This document shows, piece by piece, positions 35,032 through 49,714 of a stretch of DNA of 64,000 bases. This stretch comes from Modestobacter lapidis. Its GTDB lineage: Bacteria; Actinomycetota; Actinomycetes; Mycobacteriales; Geodermatophilaceae. The notes beneath the pieces are model-generated. The model did no database searches. It was given only the letters and a program-made list of their open reading frames with translations, and was not told where the DNA came from. The translations under genes and the position numbers were made by a program. The DNA is taken from NCBI GenBank assembly GCA_019779905.1, contig JABAKE010000013.1:1-64000 (forward strand). The letters run 5' to 3'. Position 1 is the first letter of the stretch. Every line of letters begins with the position of its first letter.

Positions 35032-35628
35032 TCAGTCTGGCGGGCAGTCGCGCGCTGCAGCCGCCTCGAAGTCAGGGACGGGTCGGGCCTCGGCCTCCTC
35101 GACCGTGTCGGCGATCCCGTTCTCCGCGATGTCCCCGATCAGCCAGTCCATCTCGTCGATCTCCCGCTGCTGTGCCTCGATGATCTCGACGGCCAGCTGG
35201 CAGACGCGCACGTCGTCGAGCTCGGCCCGCTCGGAGCGGGTGATCGCCATCGAGTGGTGGGGGATCATCGCGCGCATCCAAGCGGTGTCCTGCACGGTGG
35301 TCTGGCTGCGGTCGAGGAAGATCCCGAAACCCAGGAGCAGCAGGCTCGCTGCCACGATGGCGATGTTGGCCTTCATGTTCTTGTACATGTTGGACATCCA
35401 CGCGAGCATGACCAGCCCCATGGCCCCGCCCATGGTGATCGCCATGAAGACGCGGCTCTGGCTGAAGCGGATGTGGCTCCACTCCCAGGTGCTGACGAAC
35501 ATGATCCAGTACATGAGGACGATGGACGTCAGGATCGCGGCCCCGAACCGCAGGTACATCTTCGCCTGGGGCGACATGCCGCCGCCCTGATCGTTCTCGT
35601 TCGCCTCGTCGCTCTTCTTCGTCGCCAT
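35032..35628 (-). CDS. Membrane-anchored DUF305 protein
   Basis: 198 residues from ATG 35626-35628. Three hydrophobic helices occupy about 25-110, then a soluble DUF305 module with WMRAMIPHHSMAITRSERA near 125 and VCQLAVEIIEAQQREIDEMDWLI. The HHS metal-site motif is conserved; DUF305 proteins are ferritin-like helical bundles and include the copper-binding CopM of Synechocystis. The gene is divergent from the DUF6153-like gene, and dyad box A (35810-35833) lies in the shared upstream region. The in-frame upstream ATG at 35676 is less likely because GGAGAT precedes 35628. Confidence 0.85.
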   Translation of the reverse strand: MATKKSDEANENDQGGGMSPQAKMYLRFGAAILTSIVLMYWIMFVSTWEWSHIRFSQSRVFMAITMGGAMGLVMLAWMSNMYKNMKANIAIVAASLLLLGFGIFLDRSQTTVQDTAWMRAMIPHHSMAITRSERAELDDVRVCQLAVEIIEAQQREIDEMDWLIGDIAENGIADTVEEAEARPVPDFEAAAARDCPPD

Positions 35629-35809
35629 GAATCCGATCTCCGTTCTGCGGTTGTCGGGGTGGGAGGAGTCGCGCACGTCGTGGGACTCGCGGCCACGAGA
35701 GCCGCTGGCTGCATCCGGTCACACCGCAGGCGCGTGGCTGCCGTGGTCGGCAGTCCGCGCGGAAGGTCGAGACTTTAGGCAGACGGCGACCTTGTGGAAC
35801 GGCGTCCGC

Positions 35810-35833
35810 ATGCCCGTACGGTTGTCCGGATAA
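35810..35833. promoter_or_regulatory. Dyad box A (ATGCCCG-N10-CGGATAA)
   Basis: A 24-bp site in the 306-bp intergenic region 35629-35934 between divergent DUF305 and DUF6153-like genes. It shares spacing and most positions with boxes B and C, including the spacer GGTTGTC of A and AGTTGTC of C. A TACGGT -10-like hexamer (35817-35822) lies inside it. The remainder of the gap has no recognised feature other than a minus-strand TAAAGT hexamer at 35772-35777. Confidence 0.65.
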
Positions 35834-35934
35834 ACGCGAGTGACTCGGTGCCCTCGTCGGAACCGTCGGAACAGGTACCGTCGTGCCGCCATCGAGCCTG
35901 CAGGCATGCGGGGCAGGTGTGGAGCGGGGGTGTC

Positions 35935-36357
35935 ATGCGAGGGCGGCGGATCTGGGCACTGCTCGTGGTGGCCGCCGTCCTGGCCATGCACGGGGTGCAG
36001 TGCATGAGCGGATCTTTCGGCCCCGCCCACGTGGCTTCCGCCGTCCCTCTCACCGTGCTGGACGGCGGCTCGACCGTGTTCCCCGATGGAACCCCCCACG
36101 TCGCCGCCCTCGGCGCGGATGCGATCACGCCACTCCACCCCGCTCCTGGCGGCCTCCCAGCCCATGGACCCGAGTTCTGGACCATCTGTCTTGCTGTGGT
36201 GTTCGCGGCGTTGGCGCTGGTGAGCGTCGCGTTGCTGTTCCGTGGGCGAGCCGCCCTCGTCGTACGAGGCCCGCCCCGCTCGTTGCATGGGCTCCGGCAG
36301 CGCTACCGGCTGCACCCGGCGCCGGATCTCTCCGCTCTCTGTCTCCTGCGGATCTAG
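35935..36357 (+). CDS. DUF6153-like small membrane/secreted protein
   Basis: 140 residues from ATG 35935. An N-terminal hydrophobic segment (about 5-25, IWALLVVAAVLAMHGVQC) acts as signal anchor, a variable extracytoplasmic stretch follows and a second hydrophobic helix lies near 85-105 (FWTICLAVVFAALALVSVALL). The layout, the LAMHG motif and the position next to DUF305 genes fit DUF6153 proteins, which accompany DUF305 genes in many actinobacteria. Box A is about 100 bp upstream. The rest of the sequence is low in conserved features, so the family name is tentative. Confidence 0.6.
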   Translation: MRGRRIWALLVVAAVLAMHGVQCMSGSFGPAHVASAVPLTVLDGGSTVFPDGTPHVAALGADAITPLHPAPGGLPAHGPEFWTICLAVVFAALALVSVALLFRGRAALVVRGPPRSLHGLRQRYRLHPAPDLSALCLLRI

Positions 36358-36438
36358 GCCGAACGCCCCGACCCCGCCAGCACCTGCTGGACGGGGGGCG
36401 ATCAGGCACGCCCAGACCTCATTGACAGGAGACTCGCA

Positions 36439-37071
36439 ATGACCCGCACGACAGCTCGACTCGTCCGCATCGCCGGTGGCCTGCTCGCCGGCGCAGTCCT
36501 TCTCGGCGGCTGTTCCAGTGCCGTCGACGGCACCGCGGCCGATAGCAACACTTCCGCCGACAGCTCGGCGACCGTGTCCGAAGAGTTCAACGACGCCGAC
36601 GTCGCCTTCGCTCAGGGGATGATCCCGCATCACGAAGGTGCCCTGGTGATGGCTGAGATGGCTGTGGAGCGCGCCAGCGATCCTCGCGTGCTGGGCCTGG
36701 CCGAGCGCATCCAGGCCGGTCAGGGCCCGGAGATCGATCTGATGACCGGCTGGCTGGAGGAGTGGGGAGAGCCGGTGGAATCCGGTGGCATGGGCGGTAT
36801 GGATCATGGATCAGATGGCATGGGCCACGCGCCCCAGGACATGCCCGGCATGGGCTCCGGCGGCATGGGAGACATGCCCGCCGGTCCCGACTTCGACCGG
36901 ATGTGGCTCCAGTCGATGATCGGCCACCACGACGGTGCGGTGGTCATGGCGCAAATCGAGATCGACGACGGCGCGAACGAGGAAGCGATCGACCTGGCTC
37001 GGCTCATCGTCGAGACCCAGAACGACGAGATCAACGAGATGCAGCAGCTGCTGAATGAACTCGGCGGCTGA
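36439..37071 (+). CDS. DUF305 lipoprotein with Met/His-rich linker
   Basis: 210 residues. Lipobox LLGGC gives lipidated Cys25. Two DUF305 half-motifs are present: GMIPHHEGALVMAEMA (about 60-75) and MIGHHDGAVVMAQIE (about 160-175). Between them, residues about 116-146 are Gly/Met-rich with a GMDHG motif, the composition of copper-binding Met motifs. The protein would sit outside the membrane and bind copper or another soft metal; this is inferred from CopM-type relatives and Met/His content. It belongs to the unit DUF6153-DUF305-BNR under box A. Confidence 0.9.
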   Translation: MTRTTARLVRIAGGLLAGAVLLGGCSSAVDGTAADSNTSADSSATVSEEFNDADVAFAQGMIPHHEGALVMAEMAVERASDPRVLGLAERIQAGQGPEIDLMTGWLEEWGEPVESGGMGGMDHGSDGMGHAPQDMPGMGSGGMGDMPAGPDFDRMWLQSMIGHHDGAVVMAQIEIDDGANEEAIDLARLIVETQNDEINEMQQLLNELGG

Positions 37072-37081
37072 GTCGGTGGCT

Positions 37082-37112
37082 GCGGGGGCGGCGGCCGGTC
37101 CGCCGCCCCCGC
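37082..37112. terminator. GC-rich hairpin after the DUF305 lipoprotein gene
   Basis: A perfect 13-bp stem (37082-37094 with 37100-37112) and CCGGT loop, 10 bp after the stop. It may attenuate transcription into the BNR-repeat gene. Confidence 0.7.
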
Positions 37113-37170
37113 GGCGCCCCTGCTTGCCGGGTCCACCTCCCGGCCCTCAGACGGATCCCTGGAGTTCGCC

Positions 37171-38061
37171 GTGCGTAGCCAGATAACCCCTCGTTCTTGC
37201 CGTTCCTCCCGGACGATGGTCACCGGCTCGGTGATGACCGCCCTCGTGGTTGCCCTGGCCGCATGTTCCTCGTCGGAGTCCGCCCCCTCCGGCCCAGTCG
37301 AAGCACTTCCTGCGGGGTCATTGCCCGCAGCTCACGTCCACGGAGTTGGGATAGATCCTGGAGACGGAGACGTGCTGGTGGCGACGCACGAGGGCCTCCT
37401 CGAGGTCGGTGACGGCGGCCAGGTCACCCCCGTCGGCCCGGTGATCGACCTGATGGGGTTCAGCGTGGCCGGTCCCGCCCGGTACCTGGCCTCCGGTCAC
37501 CCCGGCCTGCGCGTCGACCTGCCGCAGCCCGTCGGCCTCATCGAGTCCACCGACGGCGGTCGTACCTGGACGCCGCTGTCCCGACAGGGGCAGTCCGACT
37601 TTCACGGCTTGACCGCCAGCGACGCCGGTGTGCTCGGCTTCGACGGGGCACTGATGCGTAGCGACGACGGCCGAGCGTGGGAACAGCTGGACATCCCGGC
37701 CGAGCCGCACTCGCTGGCGGCGTCACCGGACGGCATGCACGTGCTGGCGGCGACTCAGCAGGGCCTCCTGCGCTCCGTCGATGCGGGGTCCTCGTGGTCC
37801 CCGTCGGTTGGGGCGCCCGTCCTCCAGGTGGTCGACTGGGCCGACGGTGACAGCGCCGTCGGGGTGACGCCGACCGGGGTGGTGTGGTCCAGCACCGACC
37901 GTGGTGAGACGTGGCAGGAGGCGGGGCGGCTGGACGCCGCTCCCGAAGTTGTGGTGGCGTCTGCGGAAGGCGATCGGATGCGGCTCGTGGTCGTGACTAC
38001 CGACGCCCTCGTCGAGTCGTTCGATGGTGGCTCTACTTTCGAGGTCCTGCTGGAGCGTTGA
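37171..38061 (+). CDS. BNR/sortilin-repeat lipoprotein (F510_1955-type)
   Basis: 296 residues from GTG 37171 (GGAG seven bases upstream); ATG 37216 is an alternative start. A lipobox-like ALAAC is at about 26-30. The remainder is a beta-propeller with BNR motifs: ESTDGGRTWTPLS, MRSDDGRAWEQLD, RSVDAGSSWSPSV, SSTDRGETWQEAG and ESFDGGSTFEVLL. I recall this family, annotated F510_1955 glycosylhydrolase, next to DUF305 genes in other actinobacteria; no glycosidase residues can be identified. Likely an extracytoplasmic partner of the DUF305 lipoprotein. Confidence 0.8.
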   Translation: MRSQITPRSCRSSRTMVTGSVMTALVVALAACSSSESAPSGPVEALPAGSLPAAHVHGVGIDPGDGDVLVATHEGLLEVGDGGQVTPVGPVIDLMGFSVAGPARYLASGHPGLRVDLPQPVGLIESTDGGRTWTPLSRQGQSDFHGLTASDAGVLGFDGALMRSDDGRAWEQLDIPAEPHSLAASPDGMHVLAATQQGLLRSVDAGSSWSPSVGAPVLQVVDWADGDSAVGVTPTGVVWSSTDRGETWQEAGRLDAAPEVVVASAEGDRMRLVVVTTDALVESFDGGSTFEVLLER

Positions 38062-38069
38062 GGTCGGCC

Positions 38070-38108
38070 CCGGGGGCGCCAGGCCGTGGTGGACCGTGGC
38101 GCCCCCGG
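38070..38108. terminator. Convergent terminator hairpin
   Basis: A perfect 12-bp stem (38070-38081 with 38097-38108) lies between the BNR gene and the convergent copper-protein gene. Confidence 0.75.
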
Positions 38109-38129
38109 CGTCGACCGTCCGTGCGGCCG

Positions 38130-38537
38130 TCAGCCCAGCGAGCTGATGAGGTCCCGGCACGCCTGCTCGCAGCGCCGGCAGGCCTCGGCGCAGACCCGGC
38201 AGTGCTCGTGCATCGAGGCGTGGCCCTCGCACTCGTCACCGCACGCCTTGCAGGCCGCGGCGCAGGCCTCGAGCACCGCGCGGGTGAGGTTGGCGTCGTA
38301 GCCGGTGTGCCGGGAGAGCACGCGGCCGGTCGTGTCGCAGATGTCGGCGCAGTCGGTGTTGCTGCGGATGCACTTGGTCAGCTCGGCGACCTTGTCCTCG
38401 CTGAGGCAGGCGTCGGCGCACGCGGTACACGCCTGGGCGCACTCGAAGCAGGCTTCGATGCAGGCCAGGAGCTTCTGCTTGTCGACCCCGCCGAGGTCCT
38501 TGGGGTAGGTGTCGAGCATCTGGGCTGCCACGGTCAT
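38130..38537 (-). CDS. Four-helix-bundle copper-binding protein (Csp/DUF326 family)
   Basis: 135 residues with GGAG before ATG 38537. Eighteen cysteines are spaced as CxxxC and CxxC along four helices, at 26, 30, 33, 37, 40, 44, 56, 63, 67, 92, 96, 99, 103, 113, 116, 120, 123 and 127, which is the hallmark of Csp copper-storage proteins that hold many Cu(I) ions inside the bundle. No signal peptide is seen, so this is a cytosolic Csp3-like form. It is divergent from the ArsR gene with box B between, so it is a likely direct target of that regulator. Confidence 0.93.
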   Translation of the reverse strand: MTVAAQMLDTYPKDLGGVDKQKLLACIEACFECAQACTACADACLSEDKVAELTKCIRSNTDCADICDTTGRVLSRHTGYDANLTRAVLEACAAACKACGDECEGHASMHEHCRVCAEACRRCEQACRDLISSLG

Positions 38538-38607
38538 GGGTACTCCTCGGATCTGTGGCGCCGGACGGCTCGGACGCCGTCTGGGACGATCGCCGACAAG
38601 TTCGGCG

Positions 38608-38631
38608 CTACCCGCAGATCCGTACGGGTAT
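38608..38631. promoter_or_regulatory. Dyad box B (CTACCCG-N10-CGGGTAT)
   Basis: The most symmetric copy of the 24-bp dyad; on the minus strand it reads ATACCCG-N10-CGGGTAG. It lies 23 bp before the ArsR start (38655) and 70 bp before the divergent copper-protein start, overlapping a TATGAG hexamer, a good position for autorepression. Confidence 0.75.
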
Positions 38632-38654
38632 GAGTGCACCGGAGGTGTTTCTCG

Positions 38655-39035
38655 ATGTCCCCACCTGACCACGCGCACCCGGTCGACCCCGAGCGGGTCG
38701 CACACGCCCGTGCCCGGCTGCCCAGCCGGGACGAAGCGGCTCAGCTGACCAGCGTGCTGAGCCTGATGGCCGATCCCACCCGGGCCCGGGTCCTGTTCGC
38801 CCTGGACATGGTCGAGGAGCTCTGCGTCGGCGACCTCGCCCTCGCACTTGAGACCAACGAGGACGCCGTGGGGTACGCCCTCCGGTTGCTGCGCACGGCA
38901 GGCCTCGTCACCAACCGGAAGCAGGGCCGCGTCGTCTACTACCGCCTCGCCGACGGTTTTCCCGAACCGCTCCGCGAGCACTGCCTTCGCCAGCTGATCG
39001 TGCTCGCCGAGGCGCCGGCACCGGACGACGACTGA
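38655..39035 (+). CDS. ArsR/SmtB-family metal-responsive repressor
   Basis: 126 residues; GGAGG nine bases before ATG 38655. The winged-helix fold is clear: LTSVLSLMADPTRARVLFALDM, EELCVGDLALALETNEDAVGYALRLLRTAGLV (recognition helix) and the wing VTNRKQGRVVYYRLAD. C57 in the ELCVGD motif matches one of the two cysteines of the ELCVCD metal site of ArsR/CadC-type sensors, with C110 (REHC) and His residues near both ends as further possible ligands. The neighbouring copper protein suggests Cu(I) or a related soft metal as inducer, but the ligand set does not prove this. Boxes A-C are the presumed operators. Confidence 0.9.
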   Translation: MSPPDHAHPVDPERVAHARARLPSRDEAAQLTSVLSLMADPTRARVLFALDMVEELCVGDLALALETNEDAVGYALRLLRTAGLVTNRKQGRVVYYRLADGFPEPLREHCLRQLIVLAEAPAPDDD

Positions 39036-39132
39036 CGGGATGCCGGCCTTGGGACGCAGCTCTTTCCGTGCGTCTCACGGCGCGCGGCCTGCGTCGGCGC
39101 GCGGGCATCCTCGACCGCCCCTACAGTCGGCT

Positions 39133-39156
39133 ACATCCGCACAGTTGTCCGGATGT
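39133..39156. promoter_or_regulatory. Dyad box C (ACATCCG-N10-CGGATGT)
   Basis: A third 24-bp dyad, perfectly symmetric in its outer seven bases, 67 bp upstream of the first gene of the complex I-like operon. It shares the CCGYACRGTTGTCCGGAT core with box A, differing at a few positions. Confidence 0.7.
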
Positions 39157-39223: not shown

Positions 39224-39565
39224 ATGATTGCCGTGCTGTCGTTGCTGGCCCTGATTCTGGCCGGCGTCGTCGGGCTGTACGCCGCGTCGTCCGCGGTGCG
39301 CCCCGCCCGCGAGTCAGCGACCGTCCTGCCCTACGAATCCGGGCTGGTCCCGCAGCAGCACGCCGTCTCCCGCTACCACACCCGCTGGTACGCGGTCACC
39401 GTCCTGTTCCTCGCCTTCGACATGGAGATGATCTTCATGTACCCGTGGGCGGTCGTCGTCGCGGACATGGGCACGACTGCCGTCGTCGAGATGTTCGGCT
39501 TCCTCACCATCCTGCTCGTCGGCGTCACCTACGTGTGGCGGGAAGGCGCTCTGCGATGGACCTGA
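39224..39565 (+). CDS. NuoA-like subunit of a complex I-like membrane module
   Basis: 113 residues from ATG 39224. NuoA pattern: three membrane helices, the loop LPYESGLVPQQHAVSRYHTRWYAVTVLFLAFDMEMIFMYPWAVV with the conserved E/D residues in the second helix, and FLTILLVGVTYVWREGALRW. It is the first gene of an eight-gene operon with tight overlaps (here 10 bp with the next gene). The usual NuoB, C, D, E, F, G and I genes are missing. Box C upstream implies metal-regulated expression. Confidence 0.9.
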   Translation: MIAVLSLLALILAGVVGLYAASSAVRPARESATVLPYESGLVPQQHAVSRYHTRWYAVTVLFLAFDMEMIFMYPWAVVVADMGTTAVVEMFGFLTILLVGVTYVWREGALRWT

Positions 39566-40650
39566 GTGCGCGACTGCGCGGCTGGGCGTTGGCCCGGCCA
39601 CGAGTCCTGCTCGTCGACACCCCCGGCGCGACGCCGTTCCGCTGGGCCGTCGAGGCCGACCTCGATCGCCGCGGCTGGTCGCACGCCCGGTCGCCGGCGG
39701 ACACCGATCTTCTCGTCGTCCTGGGCCCCCCTGGACCGGGCCTGGCCGCGGCTGTCGAGGTCCTCTGGAGCCAGGTACCCGAACCCCGGCATCGGGTGGA
39801 CCTGCGCCGGCCTGACGACATCGGCGCCGCTCTGGACGAGGGCGGGGCCGCGCTCATCCGCCCGGCAGGCTCGGGGCCGGGCGCCGACGATCGGCCGTCC
39901 CCGGCAGAGCTGCTCGGCACGGACGGGGACGCCGGTCACGAGGGCATGGACCACGGTGGTGGTCACGAGGGCATGGACCACGGTGGTGGTCACGAGGGCA
40001 TGGACCACGGTGGTGAGGTCGCCGGGCTGCCGATGGCGATGACGGGCCCGGATCGGGACGGGCTCGAGCTAGACGTGCTCACGGTGGTGCTCGGGCCGGT
40101 GCTACCCGGCTGGCCCACCGGGCTGGTCCTGCGGGCGGAACTGCAGGGTGACGTCCTCACGTCCGCCGAGCTCTGCTGGCTCGACGCCGCGTCTCTCCCC
40201 GCCGCCGAGCTCGACCTGGATCCGCAGCAGGCGGCGCTGGATCGTCTCGTCCGCTTCCTCGTCGTGGCCGGTTGGCCGACGGCCGCCCGCGATGCACGTC
40301 GCGCCCGGGACGGCTTCAGCGCCGGCGACCCCGATCGACGCGTCGCGGCACAGCGGCGCGCAGCGGCGGTGGCGCGGAGGGTGCGCCGCTCGCGCGCGCT
40401 GGCGTGGACGGCCGGTGGCATCGGGTGCACGGCGCCGGAAAGTGGCCTCGGCGGAGACACCCTGGACCGGGTTCGGCGGTGGTGTGAGATCGCGGTGGGG
40501 CAGCCGGTGGCGGAGCTTGCCGGGCCGTCGCTGGACGAGGTCGCGGCGCTGGTGCAGGGCGCCGAGCTCGGAAGTGCACGATTGATCGTGGCCGGCTTCG
40601 ACCTCCAGCCCGTCACCGTGGTCCCGCCGTCGGAGTCCGCCCATGCCTGA
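39556..40650 (+). CDS. Degenerate NuoB/NuoD-like protein with His/Met-rich repeat
   Basis: 364 residues, 10-bp overlap with the NuoA-like gene. Residues about 15-90 resemble NuoB in pattern (TDLLVVLGPPGPGLAAAVEVL, SQVPEPRHRVDL beside the QMPEPKWV of true NuoB), but every cysteine ligand of cluster N2 is missing. Residues 127-153 are three GHEGMDHGG units. Residues about 170-205 (LTVVLGPVLPGWPTGLVLR and LQGDVL) resemble the N-terminus of NuoD/hydrogenase large subunit. The C-terminal 150 residues are helical and Arg-rich. It may be the cytosolic connector of the module; the alignment is by eye and the fusion reading is inference. Confidence 0.65.
   Translation: MDLSARLRGWALARPRVLLVDTPGATPFRWAVEADLDRRGWSHARSPADTDLLVVLGPPGPGLAAAVEVLWSQVPEPRHRVDLRRPDDIGAALDEGGAALIRPAGSGPGADDRPSPAELLGTDGDAGHEGMDHGGGHEGMDHGGGHEGMDHGGEVAGLPMAMTGPDRDGLELDVLTVVLGPVLPGWPTGLVLRAELQGDVLTSAELCWLDAASLPAAELDLDPQQAALDRLVRFLVVAGWPTAARDARRARDGFSAGDPDRRVAAQRRAAAVARRVRRSRALAWTAGGIGCTAPESGLGGDTLDRVRRWCEIAVGQPVAELAGPSLDEVAALVQGAELGSARLIVAGFDLQPVTVVPPSESAHA
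39934..40014 (+). repeat. Three perfect 27-bp tandem repeats
   Basis: Units 39934-39960, 39961-39987 and 39988-40014 are identical and encode GHEGMDHGG in frame. Perfect identity suggests recent expansion or gene-conversion upkeep of a metal-binding segment. Confidence 0.95.
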
Positions 40651-41584
40651 CGAGACGTTGGTGGACGTGTGGGGGTTGGCGCCTGCCGTCCTGGTGATCA
40701 TGGTGGGCGGGCTGGCCCTGGGCCTCGTGGTGGCGGCGGTCGACCGGGCCGTCGTCTCCGGGGAAGCCGGGAGAGCGGTCGTCGAGCCGCTGCTTGCCGG
40801 CGCGCGGGGGCTGGTGGAGCAGCGGCGGACGACCTTGGCGCCGGATCGGCTGCTGTGGCGGATCGGCTGCGCCGCGGTGCCGACGCTGGCGCTGTTGTCG
40901 CTGGCCGTGGTGCCCGTGGGCGGCCGGACGCTGTGGTCGACCAGCGCGGACCTCGTGTGGTTCAACGCCATGGAGGCGTTGCTGTGGGCGGCGGTGTGGC
41001 TGGTCGGGTGGGGTCCGAACGCGGTCCACGCGCTGACCGGCGGATACCGGTTCCTCGCCCAGGGCCTGGCCTACGAACTGCCGCTGATGTTCGCGTTGAT
41101 CACGGCGGGCCTGGCGGCCGGGTCGCTGCGGACGACGGACGTCGTCGCCGCGCAGGAGGGCCTGTGGTTCGTGGTGACGATGCCGGTCGCCTTCGTCGTC
41201 TTCGTGGCCGGCGCCGCGGCCTTCGCGTTCTGGGGCCCGTTCGCCGCGCCCGCCGCGGCCGACATCGCCGGCGGCGTCACCTCGGAGCTGTCGGGTGTCG
41301 ACCGGCTGCTCGTCGACCTGGGCCGGGCGGTGTTCCTGGGCGCCGCCGCGGCCATGGCTGTCGCCCTGTTCCTGGGCGGCGACGCCGGCCCGTGGCTGCC
41401 CGGCCCGTTGTGGTTCCTGCTCAAGACCCTCGCCGTCGTGACGGCGCTCGTCTGGGCCGGCCGCCGGGTGCCGGTGCTGCGGCCCGATCGCACGGTGGAG
41501 GTCGGCTGGATGGTCCTCGTTCCGCTGACCCTGCTGCAGGCGCTCGCCGTGGCCGTGCTGGTCCTGAACGGCTTCTACGCATGA
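40643..41584 (+). CDS. NuoH-like membrane subunit
   Basis: 313 residues, overlapping the previous gene by 8 bp. Eight hydrophobic helices and the motif GGYRFLAQGLAYELPLMF (compare the AQxxSYE of NuoH) identify it. The quinone-site loop that normally reads ERxPFDxxEAE is changed: GPFAAPAAADIAGGVTSELSG keeps the TSELSG equivalent but loses most acidic residues. The protein would be the anchor between peripheral and membrane arms, but the changes suggest altered quinone chemistry. Shorter than the usual 320-420 residues. Confidence 0.85.
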   Translation: MPDETLVDVWGLAPAVLVIMVGGLALGLVVAAVDRAVVSGEAGRAVVEPLLAGARGLVEQRRTTLAPDRLLWRIGCAAVPTLALLSLAVVPVGGRTLWSTSADLVWFNAMEALLWAAVWLVGWGPNAVHALTGGYRFLAQGLAYELPLMFALITAGLAAGSLRTTDVVAAQEGLWFVVTMPVAFVVFVAGAAAFAFWGPFAAPAAADIAGGVTSELSGVDRLLVDLGRAVFLGAAAAMAVALFLGGDAGPWLPGPLWFLLKTLAVVTALVWAGRRVPVLRPDRTVEVGWMVLVPLTLLQALAVAVLVLNGFYA

Positions 41585-41594
41585 GGAGGGCGCG

Positions 41595-42176
41595 ATGCTG
41601 ACCGACCTCGGCGGCTGGGTGATCGCCACCGTCGTCGCCCTCGGGATCCTGTCGGTCGCCGCCGGGATCGCCGTGTTCGTCGTCGACTCGATGGCGCGGG
41701 CGACCTTCGCCCTGCTGGCGTCGTTCCTCGCCGTGGCGGGGGTGCTGCTGGCCCTGGACCTGGTCTACCTGGCCGTCGTGACGGCGCTGATGATGACGAT
41801 CGAGATGGCGATCATGGCCGTCTTCATGATCATGTTCATGATGAACCCGGCCGGCCTCATGCCGATGACGATGGTGCACAACGCCAAGGGCTCGGCTGTG
41901 ATCGGGGCCGGTGCGTTCGCCGGGCTCACCGTCGGCATCTGGACGGTCGACTGGCCGACCCGGGACGTCTCCCGCCCCGCCGACAGCACCCGCCAGCTCG
42001 GCGAGGCCATCATGGGCAGCCACATGCTGGTCATGCTGGTCATCGGCATCGGGCTGTTCGCCACGATCATCGCCGGCACCGTCCTGGCCACCGCACGCGG
42101 GCGGTACGACCGCTTCGGTGCCGATCTCGCCGCCGAACATCCGGACGACCCGGTGCCCGGGGGACTGCCCCGATGA
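41595..42176 (+). CDS. NuoJ-like membrane subunit, methionine-rich
   Basis: 193 residues, GAGGAGGGC before ATG 41595. Five helices and the ND6 pattern LAVVTALMMTIEMAIMAVF occur in the expected places. Residues 66-93 contain eleven methionines in 28 positions, far above normal NuoJ composition. The Met cluster covers TM3, which in complex I carries the pi-bulge and conserved Tyr/Gly, and these are replaced here. The 4-bp overlap with the next gene (ATGA) continues the operon. Confidence 0.85.
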   Translation: MLTDLGGWVIATVVALGILSVAAGIAVFVVDSMARATFALLASFLAVAGVLLALDLVYLAVVTALMMTIEMAIMAVFMIMFMMNPAGLMPMTMVHNAKGSAVIGAGAFAGLTVGIWTVDWPTRDVSRPADSTRQLGEAIMGSHMLVMLVIGIGLFATIIAGTVLATARGRYDRFGADLAAEHPDDPVPGGLPR

Positions 42177-42490
42177 CCGCCGAGCTGGTGCTCCAGGTCG
42201 TGCTGACCGTCGCCGCCGGCCTGATCGGTGTCGGGTTGTTCGGAGCGCTGTCCCAGCAGACGATCGTCATGGTGATGATGGGCCTCGAGCTCGTCCTCAA
42301 CGGGGTGCTGCTGGCCGGGGGAGCTGCCTGGTACTTCCTCGCGCCGGACCTGCCCGACGCCCAGATGCTGGTCGTCGTCGCGCTGGTGGTCATGGCGGTG
42401 GAGATGGCCATGGGCTTCGCCGTCACCATCGCCTTCTACCGGGCCCGGCAGATCGACATGATCGACATGGCCTCGGACCTGCGCGGATGA
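42173..42490 (+). CDS. NuoK-like membrane subunit
   Basis: 105 residues, the usual NuoK length. The two buried glutamates of the proton path are conserved: GLELVLNGVLLAGG (E36 equivalent) and VMAVEMAMGFAVTIAFYRAR (E72 equivalent). Starts ATGA inside the previous stop and overlaps the next gene likewise, so J, K and L are translationally coupled. The C-terminus IDMIDMASDLRG is a short cytosolic tail. Confidence 0.9.
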   Translation: MTAELVLQVVLTVAAGLIGVGLFGALSQQTIVMVMMGLELVLNGVLLAGGAAWYFLAPDLPDAQMLVVVALVVMAVEMAMGFAVTIAFYRARQIDMIDMASDLRG

Positions 42491-44424
42491 GCGCCGCCCT
42501 CGGCGCGCTGGTGCTGCTCCCCGCCCTGAGCGGGACGGGGCTGCTGGTCGCCGGTCGGCGGGCCGACCGTGCCGCCGGTCCGCTGGCCGTTGCCGTCACC
42601 GGGGCCGGTGCGGCGCTGTCAGCTTGGGTGGCCGGAACCCGGCCGCGGCTTTCGGTGCCCTTCCTCGGCGTCATCGAGGGCGGCGACCTGCGCCTGGTCG
42701 TCGACGGGCTGTCCGCCGTGCTCGTGGTCCTGGTCGCGGGGATCGCTCTGCTGGTCACCGTCTTCGCCCTCGCGGATCTGCCGGCGGATGCCGCACGAGG
42801 GCGCTTCTTCGGCTACCTGCTGCTCTTCGTCGCCGCCATGCTGGCCACGGTCACCGCGGCCACACTGCCCGCGCTCCTCCTGGCATGGGAGGTGATGGGC
42901 GCGACCTCCTACGCGCTGATCGGCTTCCGGTGGGAGGAGCCGGGCAAGCTGGCCGCCGGCACCCGCGCGTTCGTGACCACGCGCGCCGGGGACCTCGGCC
43001 TGTACGTCGCCGGCGGGGCCGCGCTGGCGGCCACGGGCAGCCTGGTCCTCGCCGATCTGGCCGGTGCCGACGGCGGCTGGGCGCATCTGGCCGCCGCCGG
43101 CGTGCTGGTCGCCGCGCTCGGCAAGTCGGCGCAGCTGCCCTTCTCGGCCTGGCTCTCGGCCGCCATGCAGGGCCCGAGCCCGGTCAGCGCGCTGCTGCAC
43201 TCGGCCACGATGGTGGCCGCCGGCGGATACCTGCTGATCCGGATGCAGCCACTGCTGGCAGCGACCGGCTGGGCCGCGACCGCGGCCGCCTGGGCCGGTG
43301 CGTTGACCGCACTCGTGCTGGGCGCCGTGGCCCTGGCTCAGTCCCATCTCAAGCAGTTGCTCGCGGCGAGCACCGCCGCACAGATCGGCTTCGTCGTGCT
43401 CGCCGCCGGGGTGGGCGCCACCGCGGGCGGCACGGCTCAGCTCGTCGCGCACGCCGCGGTCAAGGCCGGCCTCTTCGTCGCCGCCGGCGCCTGGCTCACC
43501 GCGCTCGGCACCAGGAACCTCGCCGACCTGCGTGGCGCCGCCCGCCGGTACCCGGGGATCGGCGCAGCCGCCACCGTCGCCGCCCTCGCCCTGGCCGGTG
43601 TGCCTCCCCTGTCGCTGTGGGCGACCAAGGACGAGGTGCTCGCCGGTGTCGACGGACGGGCGCTGACGGTGGTGGGTCTCGCCGCCGCTGCGCTCTCGGC
43701 GGCGTACGCCGGTCGGATCCTGGCCGTCGTCCTCGCTCGGCCGACCGGGGACGAGGCGTTCGACGACGAGGAGCCGGGCACCCGGCGCGTCCCGGCGCTC
43801 ACCACCGTCGTCGCCGGCGTGCTCGCCGTGTTCGCCGCCGGGCTGGGCGTGCTCGCGCTGCCGGCCGTGGCCGAGCAGCTCAAGGCGGTCCTGGGCGCGG
43901 AGGGCCAGCCGTCCCCGGGCCTGGGGGAGCTGCTGTCGTCCGGGGCGCTCGCGCTCGCCGTCCTGGGGCTGACCATCGCCGTGGTCAGCACCCGCCCCGC
44001 CGTTCTGCAGCAGCTCTCCCGGGGTCCGCTCGGGTCGTGGGCCGGGCTCGGGCGGCTGCTGTCCCCGCGACCGGCGATGGCGCTGGCCCGGGCGCTGGCC
44101 ACCGTGGACGACCGGGTGGTGGACCGGGCGGTGATGGGAGTGGCTGCCGGCGCCCGCCGGCTTGCCGCATCGGCGTCCCAGGCGGACGACCGTGTCCTGG
44201 ACGGCGCGGTGTCGGCGGTCGCCTCGGCGACCCGCGGTGCAGCCGCCGGGGCCGCGCGGATGGACGCCGGAGTGGTGGACGGCGCGGTCCGCGGCACGGC
44301 GAGGGCGTTCCGTCGCGCGGGGAGCGCCGCCCGCCGTCCCCAGACCGGGCTGCTGCACCAGTACTACGCCCAGGCCGTCGTCGGTCTGGGCGTCCTGCTC
44401 GTTCTCCTGCTCGTGGTGAGGTAG
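42487..44424 (+). CDS. NuoL-like antiporter subunit
   Basis: 645 residues. The Mrp-type core is clear: LLAWEVMGATSYALIGF with its Glu, TRAFVTTRAGDLGLY, GKSAQLPFSAWLSAAMQGPSPVSALLHSATMVAAGGYLL and LKQLLAASTAAQIGFVVLA. The usual His of PFHTWLPDAM is Ser here. A C-terminal extension (about 530-620) has three short imperfect repeats around DDRVVDRAV, DDRVLDGAV and DAGVVDGAV before a last helix; in NuoL this position carries the long lateral helix. It belongs to the eight-gene module controlled by box C. Confidence 0.9.
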   Translation: MSAALGALVLLPALSGTGLLVAGRRADRAAGPLAVAVTGAGAALSAWVAGTRPRLSVPFLGVIEGGDLRLVVDGLSAVLVVLVAGIALLVTVFALADLPADAARGRFFGYLLLFVAAMLATVTAATLPALLLAWEVMGATSYALIGFRWEEPGKLAAGTRAFVTTRAGDLGLYVAGGAALAATGSLVLADLAGADGGWAHLAAAGVLVAALGKSAQLPFSAWLSAAMQGPSPVSALLHSATMVAAGGYLLIRMQPLLAATGWAATAAAWAGALTALVLGAVALAQSHLKQLLAASTAAQIGFVVLAAGVGATAGGTAQLVAHAAVKAGLFVAAGAWLTALGTRNLADLRGAARRYPGIGAAATVAALALAGVPPLSLWATKDEVLAGVDGRALTVVGLAAAALSAAYAGRILAVVLARPTGDEAFDDEEPGTRRVPALTTVVAGVLAVFAAGLGVLALPAVAEQLKAVLGAEGQPSPGLGELLSSGALALAVLGLTIAVVSTRPAVLQQLSRGPLGSWAGLGRLLSPRPAMALARALATVDDRVVDRAVMGVAAGARRLAASASQADDRVLDGAVSAVASATRGAAAGAARMDAGVVDGAVRGTARAFRRAGSAARRPQTGLLHQYYAQAVVGLGVLLVLLLVVR

Positions 44425-44426
44425 TC

Positions 44427-46034
44427 GTGCTGCTGACGGTCGTGATCTTCCTGCCGGTGGTGATCGCCGGCGTGCTGCTGGCCGCCCGCGGGCTCGGTGC
44501 CCGGGCGGCCATCGGGCTGTGGGTGGCCGCCTCCGCCGTCGACCTGGCGCTGGTCGGCTGGATGTGGTGGCGCTTCGAGCCGGGGGAGGGCGCCTCGGGG
44601 GTCGTCGACGGCCTGGCGTACGAGGCCGACCTGCAGTGGATCCCGACCGTCGACGCCGGCTACCACGTCGGCGTCGACGGGCTCTCCCTGCCGCTGCTGG
44701 CCCTCACCGGGGTGCTGTTCCTGGCCTGCGCGATCTACTCGCTGCGCGAGCCGGACCGGCCGCGTACCTATGCGGCGCTGTTCCTCTTCCTGCAGACCGC
44801 GTGCCTGGGCACGTTCGCCTCGCTGGACCTGATCCTGTTCTTCGTCTTCTTCGACCTGACGATCGTCGGGATGTACTTCGTCATCGCCGGCTGGGGCCAC
44901 GGCAACGCCCGGCGCAGCGCGCTGAAGTTCTTCCTCTACACGTTCATCGGGTCGCTGGCGCTGCTCGTCGGCTTCATCGGGCTGTTCCTCGGCAGCGACG
45001 AGCGCACCTTCGACATGGTGGCGCTGGCGGCGAACCCACCGCTCGCGGACTCCCCGGTGGCCGGAGGGCTGGTCCTGCTGGCGATCGGCCTGGGGCTGGC
45101 GGTGAAGACACCGCTGTTCCCGTTCCACACCTGGCTGCCCGACGCGCACACCGACGCGCCGGCGGCCGGGTCCGCCGTTCTCGCCGGGATCCTGCTCAAG
45201 CTCGGCACCTACGGGTTCGTGCGGATCGCCATGCCGATCCTTCCCGAGGCCTGGCAGCGGTGGGCGATGGTGGCCGTCGTCGTCGGGGTGATCAGCGTGC
45301 TGTGGGGCGCGTTCGTCGCGCTGGCCCAGACCGACGTCAAGCGGATGATCGCCTACACCTCCGTCAACCACATGGGTTACGTGCTCCTCGGCCTGGGCGC
45401 GGCCGGCCTGGTCGCGTCCGCCGACGAGGGGGCGCGGACCGTCGCCACGGTGGGGGCGATGTACCAGATGGTCAGCCACGGCCTGCTCACCGGCGCGCTG
45501 TTCCTGCTCAGCGGGGTGCTGTGGTCCCGCGGGCACACCTACGCCTTCGACCGGTGGGGCGGCCTGGCGCGGCCGGCGCCGGTCTTCGCCGGCTGCCTCG
45601 CGCTCGCCGCGTTCGGTTCCCTCGGGCTGCCCGGGTTCTCCGGCTTCATCGCCGAGTTCCAGATCTTCACCGGTGCCCTGCAGGCCACGCCGGTCGCCAC
45701 GGTGATCGCCGTCGTCGGCATCCTGGTCACCGCTGGACTGTTCCTGGTCGCCCTGCAGCGGCTGCTCACCGGCGACCCCGTCGACCCCGTCGTCCCGGCC
45801 GAGGCGGACGCCGACGGGACGGGGGAGCGGCCGGCTCCCGACCGGACGGACGGGCACACGGTGACCGCCACCCGCCCGGAGGTGTCGGCCCGGGTGGTGG
45901 ACCTGCGCGGCCACGAGGTGGCCTCGATCGTCCCGCTGCTCGTGCTCGCGCTGGTCCTGGGCCTGCTCCCACGGATCGTGCTGGATGTCCTCGAGCCGGC
46001 CGCCATGGCGGTGGTGGAGCTGGTGGCCCGGTGA
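44427..46034 (+). CDS. NuoM-like antiporter subunit
   Basis: 535 residues from GTG 44427 with GAGGTAG overlapping the previous stop. Patterns: VGVDGLSLPLLALTGVLF, GLAVKTPLFPFHTWLPDAH with the central lysine, VKRMIAYTSVNHMGYVLLG and GFSGFIAEFQIF. Where NuoM has the essential Glu in the WELMLIPMYFLI motif, this protein has FFDLTIVGMYFVIAG, so Glu is replaced by Asp, and the following HTEAP is HTDAP. These are conservative, repeated E-to-D changes. A His/Asp/Arg-rich cytosolic loop lies near 450-500. Confidence 0.9.
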   Translation: MLLTVVIFLPVVIAGVLLAARGLGARAAIGLWVAASAVDLALVGWMWWRFEPGEGASGVVDGLAYEADLQWIPTVDAGYHVGVDGLSLPLLALTGVLFLACAIYSLREPDRPRTYAALFLFLQTACLGTFASLDLILFFVFFDLTIVGMYFVIAGWGHGNARRSALKFFLYTFIGSLALLVGFIGLFLGSDERTFDMVALAANPPLADSPVAGGLVLLAIGLGLAVKTPLFPFHTWLPDAHTDAPAAGSAVLAGILLKLGTYGFVRIAMPILPEAWQRWAMVAVVVGVISVLWGAFVALAQTDVKRMIAYTSVNHMGYVLLGLGAAGLVASADEGARTVATVGAMYQMVSHGLLTGALFLLSGVLWSRGHTYAFDRWGGLARPAPVFAGCLALAAFGSLGLPGFSGFIAEFQIFTGALQATPVATVIAVVGILVTAGLFLVALQRLLTGDPVDPVVPAEADADGTGERPAPDRTDGHTVTATRPEVSARVVDLRGHEVASIVPLLVLALVLGLLPRIVLDVLEPAAMAVVELVAR

Positions 46035-47503
46035 CGGGCATGTCCGGGGGCGGTGAGCGGGTGCTCGCCCTGCTGCCCGAACTGCTCCTGCTGCTCGGCG
46101 CGGTCGGTGGGTTGCTGCTGGGGCTCTGGACGCCGCAGCACCGGCAGCGGCGGGTCCGGCTCCTGGTCACCGCGGCCTGTCTGGCCAGCGCGGTCGCCGC
46201 AGCCGTGGCGCTGCCCGAACCGGCCGAGCGGGTGTTCGAGGACACCTGGGTCGTCGACACCACCACCGGCGTCGTTCGGATCGTCGTCGCGCTCGGGGTG
46301 GCGGCGCTCGTCTGGCTGGCGTCGGCCTCGTTCGCCGGACACCCGCGCGAGACCGAGGCCTACGTCCTCATGCTGCTCGGTGGGCTGGGCGCCGTCGCGC
46401 TGGCCGCCAGCGGCGACCTGCTGCTGCTCGTTGCCGCCTACCTGCTGGCCAGCGTCCCGCTGTACGCGCTCGCCGGCTTCGCCAAGGATTCTGCCGGAGT
46501 CGAGGCGGCGATGAAGTACTACCTCATGGGCGCCTTCGTCGGCGTCCTGATGCTGGTCGGCGTCGCCGCCCTGGTGCTCGCCACCGGCACGACCGGTTAC
46601 TCCGACCTCGCCGTGCTGCTCCCTGGCGCCTCCCCGGGTCTGCTCGCGGTGGGCATCCTCGGCGTGCTCGCCGGTGTCGGGTTCAAGGCCGGTGCGGTGC
46701 CGGTGCACTTCTGGGTTCCCGACGTCACGGCCGGCACCACGCCTCCGATGGCTGCCTACCTCACCACGATCCCCAAGATCGGCGCGGTCGCGGCCGCCTT
46801 CCGGCTGCTCGCCGAGCCCTTCGCCGACGTTCCCCTCGACGTGCCCCTGCTGGTCGCCCTCATTGCGGCAACCAGCATGACCCTGGGCAACCTGGCTGCC
46901 TTTCACCAGACCGACGTTCTGCGCCTGCTGGCGTACTCGACGGTGAGCCAGGTCGGCTACCTGTTCATGGTCGTGGCCGTCGCGGCGCGCACCGACCTCG
47001 CCGTGCCGGCCCTGGCGATCTACCTGGCCGGCTACGCGGTGACCAACGTCGGCGCTTTCGCCGCCGTGGCGGCGGCCCCGGTGGCTCGCACGATCACCGA
47101 CTGGGCGACCGCGGTCGGGCGCCACCGCTCGCTGGTCGTCAGCCTGGTGGTCTGCCTGCTCGGCCTGGTCGGAACACCACCGACCGCCGTCTTCGTCGGC
47201 AAGCTCGCGGTGTTCGCCGCAGCCTGGGACGGCGGGCTCGCCTGGCTGGTCGTCGTGGCGGCGATCAACACCGTCGCCAGCCTCTTCTACTACCTGCGCT
47301 GGATCGCCCCGGCGTTCGCCGGTGTTCCCGTCGCACCGGCGACGGGGGAGGGCGAGCCCGGCAGTGGTCCGCGGACCGCGGCCGGCACGGCACAGCGGAT
47401 CCAGCGCGGCCCCGTGGTGGTCCTGCACGCGGCCGCCGTGCTCTCGGTCCTCCTCGGCGTAGGCGCCGGGGTGTGGCTCGCGGCGGCCACCAGCGCGAGC
47501 TGA
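46031..47503 (+). CDS. NuoN-like antiporter subunit
   Basis: 490 residues from GTG 46031 (GTGA overlap); ATG 46040 is the alternative start. Recognised by AMKYYLMGAFVGVLMLVG, GFKAGAVPVHFWVPDVTAGTTPPMAAYLTTIPKIGAV, LRLLAYSTVSQVGYLFMVV and LVGTPPTAVFVGKLAVFAAA. At the place of the conserved membrane Glu (LELLSLPLY in typical NuoN) the sequence is YLLASVPLYALAGF with no acid, so this subunit may not pump in the usual way. Last gene of the operon; no strong terminator follows. Confidence 0.9.
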   Translation: MTGMSGGGERVLALLPELLLLLGAVGGLLLGLWTPQHRQRRVRLLVTAACLASAVAAAVALPEPAERVFEDTWVVDTTTGVVRIVVALGVAALVWLASASFAGHPRETEAYVLMLLGGLGAVALAASGDLLLLVAAYLLASVPLYALAGFAKDSAGVEAAMKYYLMGAFVGVLMLVGVAALVLATGTTGYSDLAVLLPGASPGLLAVGILGVLAGVGFKAGAVPVHFWVPDVTAGTTPPMAAYLTTIPKIGAVAAAFRLLAEPFADVPLDVPLLVALIAATSMTLGNLAAFHQTDVLRLLAYSTVSQVGYLFMVVAVAARTDLAVPALAIYLAGYAVTNVGAFAAVAAAPVARTITDWATAVGRHRSLVVSLVVCLLGLVGTPPTAVFVGKLAVFAAAWDGGLAWLVVVAAINTVASLFYYLRWIAPAFAGVPVAPATGEGEPGSGPRTAAGTAQRIQRGPVVVLHAAAVLSVLLGVGAGVWLAAATSAS

Positions 47504-47707
47504 GTAGCGGTGTCGGTGGGCGGAGCCGGCAGGAGGGTTGGTGTGGTCACGGCCGGGCATGGTGTCCGAGCGAATCGCGTGGTCGGTCGCCCCGAGACGG
47601 TATCCGCGGAGCCGTTCGGACGACGGGCTGATCGGTCTGGCTTTGGCTGCCTGACCGTGCCTTTCGGGCAGACCACGACCCTGGGTTCCATGCGAGAGGC
47701 GGTCAGG

Positions 47708-49714
<2,007 letters not shown>

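Follow-up and report, generated by a model that had tools for sequence, protein, structure and literature searches.

The DNA analyzed here is a 64-kb stretch (64,000 nucleotides, hereafter the window) of contig JABAKE010000013.1 of Modestobacter lapidis. It carries genes for DUF305 proteins, a cysteine-rich copper-storage protein (Csp) and an ArsR/SmtB-family regulator, followed by a complex I-like operon (Table 1). Three matched 24-bp inverted repeats (dyads) lie among these genes, and a preliminary description of the window had proposed that the ArsR protein controls the units next to them in response to copper or a similar soft metal. One ArsR regulon is well supported because the sites are conserved before the same genes in relatives, are recovered by a matrix learnt without the window, and track the regulator across genomes. 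Direct inspection confirmed the sequences, places and strands described for the dyads and the distance of dyad 3 from the NuoA-like gene. The placement of dyad 1 between the DUF305 and DUF6153-like genes was likewise correct, but the identity of the latter gene falls short of the family threshold (24.5 bits against a Pfam cut-off of 27.7).

Table 1. Genes and sequence elements of the locus (window positions).
Feature	Coordinates	Strand	Basis and remarks
Membrane DUF305 protein, 198 aa	35032–35628	−	DUF305 E 8.5e-9 on the longer frame 35032–35676; likely target of dyad 1
Dyad 1, ATGCCCG-N10-CGGATAA	35810–35833	+	Amid the divergent DUF305 and DUF6153-like genes
DUF6153-like small protein	35935–36357	+	E 5.2e-5; possible second target of dyad 1
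Second DUF305 protein, CopM family	36439–37071	+	DUF305 E 7.4e-46; CopM 113.5 bits (cut-off 90)
F510_1955-family BNR-repeat protein	37171–38061	+	NF045728 249 bits (cut-off 175)
Csp-type four-helix cysteine-rich copper-storage protein, 135 aa, 18 Cys	38130–38537	−	DUF326 E 4.7e-14
Dyad 2, ATACCCG-N10-CGGGTAG, minus-strand ATACCCGTACGGATCTGCGGGTAG	38608–38631	−	Candidate operator common to csp (minus) and arsR (plus); 23 bp from the arsR start
ArsR/SmtB-family regulator, 126 aa	38655–39035	+	HTH_5 E 1.2e-7; HTH_metalloreg 68.8 bits; proposed repressor of three units and itself
Possible −10 element TACAGT	39122–39127	+	5 bp ahead of dyad 3; putative promoter role
Dyad 3, ACATCCG-N10-CGGATGT	39133–39156	+	67 bp upstream of the NuoA-like start (39224)
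NuoA-like subunit	39224–39565	+	First operon gene; Oxidored_q4 E 8.2e-29
NuoB-NuoD-like fusion	39556–40650	+	Without invariant cysteines; His/Met-rich linker with HEGMDHGGG repeats
NuoH-like subunit	40643–41584	+	NADHdh E 2.1e-40; acidic loop largely changed
NuoJ-like subunit	41595–42176	+	PF00499 E 5.6e-12
NuoK-like subunit	42173–42490	+	PF00420 E 1.1e-12
NuoL-like antiporter subunit	42487–44424	+	PF00361 E 5.6e-48
NuoM-like antiporter subunit	44424–46034	+	PF00361 E 6.3e-65
NuoN-like antiporter subunit	46040–47503	+	TIGR01770 E 1.1e-85, 288.5 bits, below the cut-off of 332.6

Two further assignments are qualified by their scores. The membrane DUF305 protein reaches 36.4 bits with the CopM model, under the cut-off of 90, and the Csp-type protein scores 35.5 bits with TIGR04401, below the cut-off of 100; Csp homologues at the equivalent place are annotated as four-helix bundle copper-binding proteins. 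The second DUF305 protein has a signal-like N-terminus, as judged by eye.

Distribution of the dyads in the genome and in relatives

In a scan of the 4,784,129-base genome with the consensus AYRYCCGYACRGWTSTSCGGRT, the only matches with 0 mismatches are the three sites, all within 3.3 kb; allowing 1 or 2 mismatches adds nothing, and 15 unrelated places appear at 3. Read backwards, the same consensus matched 3 times with up to 3 mismatches allowed. Because AYRYCCGYACRGWTSTSCGGRT was built from the three sites, its perfect matches are circular, while the absence of others and the clustering within 3.3 kb are not. Close matches (≤2 mismatches) are thus confined to the three sites in the whole genome, and a random scatter of the motif, which would have spoken against the regulon, is ruled out for such matches. 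The loose 7-N10-7 pattern occurs 4 times in the window (site 3 counted twice) versus 0.73 expected by shuffling, a count reached in 1 of 100 window shuffles.

Dyad 1 consists of two overlapping dyads starting at 35802 and 35810. The weaker one (35802–35825, 19.2 bits) is offset by 8 bp from site 1, and the same double arrangement is found upstream of DUF305 in relatives (e.g., loci L077, L079, and L080), which suggests that two dimers could sit side by side at this site. At dyad 3, the TACAGT element is found at an equal distance from the dyad in 9 of 29 relatives’ nuoA rows, in addition to the window.

The window proteins were mapped onto 53 loci around close ArsR orthologues, up to 20 kb each (9 are under 19.9 kb), and upstream dyads were counted for genes with at least 60% coverage, the window being left out. 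A dyad is present ahead of 27 of the 29 linked nuoA genes, at 45–191 bp from the aligned start, and ahead of 30 of the 31 csp genes. The membrane DUF305 gene has one in 15 of 22 cases, and DUF6153 in 5 of 16. Judged by this conservation, site 1 belongs with the membrane DUF305 gene more than with DUF6153, and the latter is the weaker candidate member of the regulon. The two nuoA genes without a dyad (L114 and L115) lie downstream of a codirectional csp gene, which has a dyad of its own. The dyad stays with the nuo-like genes when these are divergent from arsR (L093, L097, L103–L105, and L108–L110) or located 5–11 kb from it (L088, L092, L094, L098, L099, and L101). A matrix grown from the three sites, and therefore seeded with them, gave 105 matches above 14 bits, including overlapping matches and the look-alike loci L117–L119, versus 2 in the reversed sequence (1.006 Mb).

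The sites are not restricted to the family Geodermatophilaceae. A scan of genome contigs yielded 171 ArsR relatives, and the best 80 loci, which were kept, come from Blastococcus, Geodermatophilus, Modestobacter, Nocardioides, Rhodococcus, Janibacter, Kineococcus, Pseudokineococcus, Nakamurella, Ornithinicoccus, Gryllotalpicola, and various metagenome-assembled genomes. Among these 80, the 34 loci outside Geodermatophilaceae were used; 33 contain a site above 15 bits (the Kineococcus locus L165 only a weak one, 16.4 bits), and L193 has none. These loci gave 39 matches versus 0 in the reversed sequence (581,142 bases), although several of the 34 genomes had also fed the three-site matrix. The cleanest test is a second matrix that is free of the window: it was learnt from 56 stretches, each at most 260 bp long and taken from in front of arsR, csp, and nuoA in 32 of the 34 loci, and comprises 38 sites with the consensus ATATCCGTACAGCTGTACGGATAT. 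In the 64-kb window this matrix ranks the three dyads 1, 2, and 3, with 29.1, 28.5, and 22.1 bits, followed by the overlapping dyad at 35802 (15.1 bits) and then by the best unrelated place (7.7 bits). Its starting set was 39 stretches with CCCG-N10-CGGG, TCCG-N10-CGGA, or ACCCGT at an arm. A seed-free count of exact dyads in the same stretches put CCCG-N10-CGGG, ACCCG-N10-CGGGT, and TACCCG-N10-CGGGTA on top for arms of 4, 5, and 6, and the top counts were reached in 0 of 60 shuffles. Reversed sequence was rejected as a control for exact dyads: palindromes survive reversal, and shuffles and random places were therefore used instead. The reversed-sequence controls of the matrix scans share this weakness only in part.

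Across 146 genomes, the motif follows the regulator. Strong matches (E ≤ 0.01) to a sequence-only model built from 36 sites, with strict filters and 54 candidates scored per genome, occur in 18 genomes, all 18 of which carry the ArsR orthologue (hypergeometric p of 4e-12, kinship ignored). Looser matches in genomes with a close orthologue cluster just ahead of arsR, ahead of nuoA, and at a third place; when read backwards, the loose pattern matched 21 times in total. Fifteen further stretches were taken, 13 of which hold a nuoA gene unlinked to an ArsR orthologue, and only 2 of these 13 (genomes G007 and G067) have the dyad, compared with 27 of 29 linked copies (Fisher 1.3e-6). The nuo-like operon of G012, a genome in which the ArsR is absent at E ≤ 1e-12, has no dyad, and at the nuo-like plasmid loci L225–L230 no dyad exceeds 12 bits. 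That every nuo-like operon belongs to the regulon is ruled out by the 11 of 13 unlinked operons without the dyad; to judge from these sites, membership of the operon in the ArsR regulon is not obligatory.

The regulon idea survived the sequence-based checks that the preliminary description had proposed. Conservation of the motif upstream of orthologues is seen at nuoA and csp, in other genera too. Tracking of the ArsR by the motif holds for the strong matches and not for the looser pattern, which is also found in genomes without the ArsR.

The regulator and its copper company

The regulator is an ArsR/SmtB winged-helix protein by its matches to HTH_5 (32 bits, cut-off 22) and HTH_metalloreg (cut-off 55). 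Its closest solved chain by profile is SmtB (E 2.8e-18), and the predicted model (pLDDT 86.1) has the order helix-helix-helix-strand-helix-helix-strand-strand-helix. Relatives at E ≤ 1e-12 are present in 62 of the 146 genomes and a close orthologue (130-bit line, best match at least 66% identity) in 41, the organism’s own genome being included in both counts. The alignment consists of 42 rows, i.e., the window protein and 41 of 51 distinct proteins; the C-terminally different frame of L125 was excluded. In these rows H8, D11, C57, D60, and C110 are invariant, and H6 is kept in 40 of 42. C57 and C110 are the only cysteines of the protein. C57 and D60 align with the SmtB sequence ELCVGDLA, whose Cys and Asp act as metal ligands. 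A putative α3N-type site, with the Cys of ELCxGD and an N-terminal Cys or His, would draw on C57, D60, and H8 and perhaps on H6. The α5 zinc site DxHx10Hx2E was not found in the 42 rows: position 102 is Phe in all of them, and position 100 is variable. From the alignment, an SmtB-type α5 site is excluded for this ArsR, while its family membership is unaffected, and C57, D60, C110, and H8 are the candidate sensing residues. Models for CmtR (Cd/Pb), BigR (sulfite), and TsoR also match the protein, each with a score under its cut-off.

SmtB/ArsR repressors are described as binding 12-2-12 repeats that overlap the transcription start or lie close to it (PMC8790569). The putative operator 23 bp ahead of arsR, an 11-2-11 dyad, has this 12-2-12 register and is kept in many, not all, relatives. 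The family responds to many different inducers, and one SmtB/ArsR-type member, BxmR, is reported as a sensor of Ag+/Cu+ plus Zn/Cd that controls an ATPase, itself, and bmtA (PMC10141476). The present regulator shares with SmtB, BxmR, AztR, and CadC the winged-helix family, an inverted-repeat candidate operator in the same register, and apparent autoregulation together with divergent metal-binding genes. It differs from them in its GC-rich half-site ATAYCCGTACG, the absence of the α5 zinc ligands (the candidates here being H8, C57, D60, and C110), and a putative regulon that includes Csp, DUF305, and the complex I-like operon.

Copper genes recur behind the dyad in relatives. On two Rhodococcus plasmids, a 30.7-bit dyad lies between arsR and a set of csp, DUF305, HMA, and copper ATPase genes, and on a Pimelobacter plasmid a 27.1-bit dyad lies between csp and the conserved arsR start, inside a longer annotated frame. 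The putative operator stands before copper storage or export genes both at csp in the linked loci and on the two Rhodococcus plasmids. The locus described here resembles actinobacterial plasmid copper islands, in which the same nuo-like operon (Arthrobacter FB24 plasmid 1 and Pseudonocardia pPA12743CP) or the same arsR-csp-DUF305 set (Rhodococcus pRB29/pRZP2) is found near copper ATPases, HMA proteins, or a multicopper oxidase; unlike in the window, the nuo-like operons examined on the plasmids have no dyad above 12 bits.

Other candidate targets appear in other genera. Dyads are found ahead of an ArsP_1 permease, mostly with YHS domains, which in four loci lies just upstream of ArsR (L178, L195, L201, and L186). 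The four permeases compared with NCBIfam resemble SO_0444 and SaoE, with scores under the cut-offs of both models, and the permease unit may be the more ancient core of the regulon. In Janibacter, csp is followed by a DUF4396 protein, and a DUF4396 look-alike, judged by eye, lies 20 bp from an orphan site of G126. An Ion_trans_2 channel follows csp in L171, and open reading frames similar to it by eye follow dyads in L075, L087, L089, and L099.

CsoR was considered as the regulator of the window and rejected: the one form of the CsoR-type box used, TA-N0-2-CCCC-N1-6-GGGG-N0-2-TA, does not match anywhere in the window, and the CsoR gene identified in the host genome is on contig C184, not on the window contig. 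Actinobacterial CsoR regulons are nevertheless related in content: the copper-storage gene SCO3281 of Streptomyces coelicolor is reported to change expression together with predicted CsoR targets (PMC6414726), and a CsoR-type box, TACCCCTAGGGGGTA, lies between csoR and nuoA on the Pseudonocardia autotrophica plasmid pPA12743CP (L226, 7844–7858). The box suggests that, on this plasmid, the same complex I-like operon answers to another copper sensor. The system of the window differs from these regulons in its regulator family and in its operator, a 24-bp dyad with N10 between CCG and CGG.

The complex I-like operon

The operon resembles respiratory complex I (Nuo/NDH-1) in containing A, H, J, K, L, M, and N subunits by Pfam/NCBIfam, a fusion with a NuoB-like stretch and a NuoD fold, and the lysines of the antiporter-type subunits. 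It differs from the respiratory enzyme in that the C gene and the genes of the NADH/electron-input subunits E, F, G, and I are absent from 39224–47503, the NuoD-like part is short, the linker is rich in Met, Asp, and His, and both the NuoH loop and the NuoB part are altered. The fusion is present in 38 of the 146 genomes, and the organism has a second nuo set (A, H, L, M, and N) on contig C17.

The NuoB-like stretch of the fusion is a putative assignment from a sequence match of E 0.0005–0.001, and the alignment of the NuoD-like part to a chain of 407 residues spans 184 residues, in a comparison that tested little outside fusion residues 165–355. The number of HEGMDHGGG repeats varies widely among relatives, resembling a repeat-length polymorphism. 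The cysteines of the N2 iron-sulfur (Fe-S) cluster were not found in the NuoB part, which has 0 invariant Cys in 20 rows; a Cys occurs in 10 of these rows at the Ala of NuoB VAG, which we take not to be a cluster position. The acidic NuoH loop, ETNRxPFDLPEAExEL in the genome’s other NuoH, is likewise changed: none of the 17 rows has the ETNR Glu or either Glu of PEAE, only 4 (L095, L116, L226, and L227) have Asp or Glu at the Asp of PFD, and 14 have Asp in place of the last loop Glu.

Three observations concern the surroundings of such operons. In the window, a YyaL/Thioredox_DsbH (DUF255) frame (47510–49714) lies within 10 bp after the operon on the same strand. On plasmid 1 of Arthrobacter sp. 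FB24 (L227, 3487–16496), which is typed as conjugative, the nuo-like operon comes after a sulfocyanin-like protein, DUF305, an F510_1955 protein, and a multicopper oxidase. At L114 and L115, the same stretches as L184 and L188 of Nakamurella endophytica, csp is first in one apparent operon with nuo-like genes; this genome has two csp–nuo-like loci on two contigs.

What such an assembly might do can be suggested only tentatively. The operon may encode a membrane machine of a new kind, i.e., a redox-stripped complex I membrane arm with a NuoB-NuoD scaffold and a probably copper-binding linker, induced by copper (through ArsR here and CsoR elsewhere), which would use the proton gradient for copper handling, whether as export, as sequestration, or as a proton flux that Cu(I) triggers, rather than oxidize NADH. 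Neither an ArsR/Csp regulon nor a copper-linked complex I-like operon is described in the open-licence literature among the matches listed, as judged by titles and the starts of abstracts. A term search of the main text of the Kineococcus radiotolerans copper proteome (PMC2928746) did not find ArsR, NADH, DUF305, complex I, ferredoxin, or permease.

Regulon model and alternatives

In the proposed mechanism, the ArsR/SmtB-family protein (38655–39035) would act as a dimeric repressor that binds the 24-bp operator ATAYCCGTACG-N2-CGTACGGRTAT, an SmtB-type 12-2-12 register in GC-rich form, in the csp/arsR promoter region, in the DUF305/DUF6153-like intergenic stretch, and just downstream of the likely nuoA −10 box. 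Because TACAGT lies 5 bp ahead of dyad 3, the dyad would cover the nuoA transcription start, which fits repression. Binding of a soft metal, most likely Cu(I), would release the DNA and allow production of the cytosolic copper-storage protein, the likely copper-binding DUF305 protein(s), the complex I-like membrane assembly, and more repressor. The dimer, DNA binding, repression as the sign of control, and Cu(I) as the ligand are what we infer from the genes and sites. Copper is the likeliest signal because of the company of the genes, and BxmR is a precedent for Cu+ sensing within the family. On the comparative evidence, control of csp, arsR, and nuoA by the ArsR through the dyad is very probable, and the full reading, with three units and the regulator itself released by a soft metal, most likely Cu(I), is given a probability of about 0.8. 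The proposal of the preliminary description that the ArsR controls all three units in a copper response accordingly gains from the conserved sites, the co-occurrence, and the copper genes nearby, and loses at DUF6153, a weaker member than DUF305.

Several findings weigh against this reading. The window’s own sites miss E 0.01 in the model search, the loose pattern (≤2 mismatches) matches 82 of the 146 genomes, many without the ArsR, and the genomes are related, so the p-values overstate independence. Unlinked nuo-like copies in ArsR-bearing genomes (G053, G072, G074, and G082) have no dyad, 2 of the 53 ArsR loci (L124 and L125) have no site above 9 bits, and the dyad is missing upstream of 7 of 22 membrane DUF305 genes and 11 of 16 DUF6153 genes. 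The arms and spacing were not free at the start of the window-free matrix, and, with arms of 4, 5, and 6 bases, random places of the same loci reached the top exact-dyad count 32, 4, and 1 times in 60 draws; exact-dyad counts alone are weak and not decisive. Finally, the metal is deduced from neighboring genes only, and the ArsP_1 permease found behind the dyad elsewhere does not, by its sequence, single out copper.

The last points bear on the alternative that survives best, namely the same regulon with another inducer, Zn(II)/Cd(II)/Pb(II), As(III)/Sb(III), reactive sulfur, or an oxidant, in which the copper proteins would give general protection against soft metals or thiol stress. The spread of inducers described for the family (PMC10141476), the sub-cut-off matches to CmtR, BigR, and TsoR models, the carboxylate D60 among the invariant candidate ligands, and the likeness of the permease to SO_0444 (Cu/Zn) or SaoE agree with it. 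This explanation is nonetheless unlikely, given that Csp, a copper-translocating ATPase, and an HMA protein stand behind the dyad on plasmids, that a multicopper oxidase and a sulfocyanin-like protein lie beside one nuo-like operon and a CsoR-type box before another, and that the α5 zinc ligands of SmtB are not kept.

That the dyads are bound by a different regulator encoded elsewhere, with arsR merely one target, would account for loci that have the dyad before csp or nuoA and not before arsR (e.g., L092, L094, L099, and L101) and for G007, where dyads precede csp and nuoA and the best ArsR relative is 42% identical. The tracking of this ArsR by all strong matches, the SmtB/ArsR type of dyad symmetry and register described in PMC8790569, and the host CsoR, which is on another contig and whose type of box (TACCCCTAGGGGGTA) the dyad does not resemble, make this improbable. 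Equally improbable is the view that the csp/arsR site alone is functional and that sites 1 and 3 are relics or serve genes other than those named. It draws on the 181 bp between dyad 1 and the DUF305 start (35628) and on the incomplete presence of the dyad at the relatives’ DUF305 genes, whereas dyad 3 is kept before nearly all linked nuoA genes through rearrangements, and the overlapping pair at dyad 1 is seen again in several relatives. Chance formation of functionless GC-rich inverted repeats, to which the loose-pattern count in the window and the random-place control lend a little, is very improbable in view of the conservation before the same genes and the recovery of the sites from outside the family.

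To date, the actinobacterial copper response has been described mostly through CsoR. If the reading of an ArsR regulon on the dyads is true, an ArsR-type operator with a defined 24-bp sequence would constitute a second copper system with predictable targets across many genera, including Blastococcus, Modestobacter, Nocardioides, Rhodococcus, Janibacter, Kineococcus, and others. The regulator is a variant within the known ArsR/SmtB kind, and the most striking target of the regulon is the complex I-like operon. The system would offer an entry into genes of unknown role, such as DUF305, DUF4396, and ArsP_1-type permeases, and above all into a relative of complex I that lacks the usual Fe-S cysteines and occurs near copper genes on chromosomes and plasmids. 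If this relative does handle copper, it would represent a novel function for the membrane arm of complex I.

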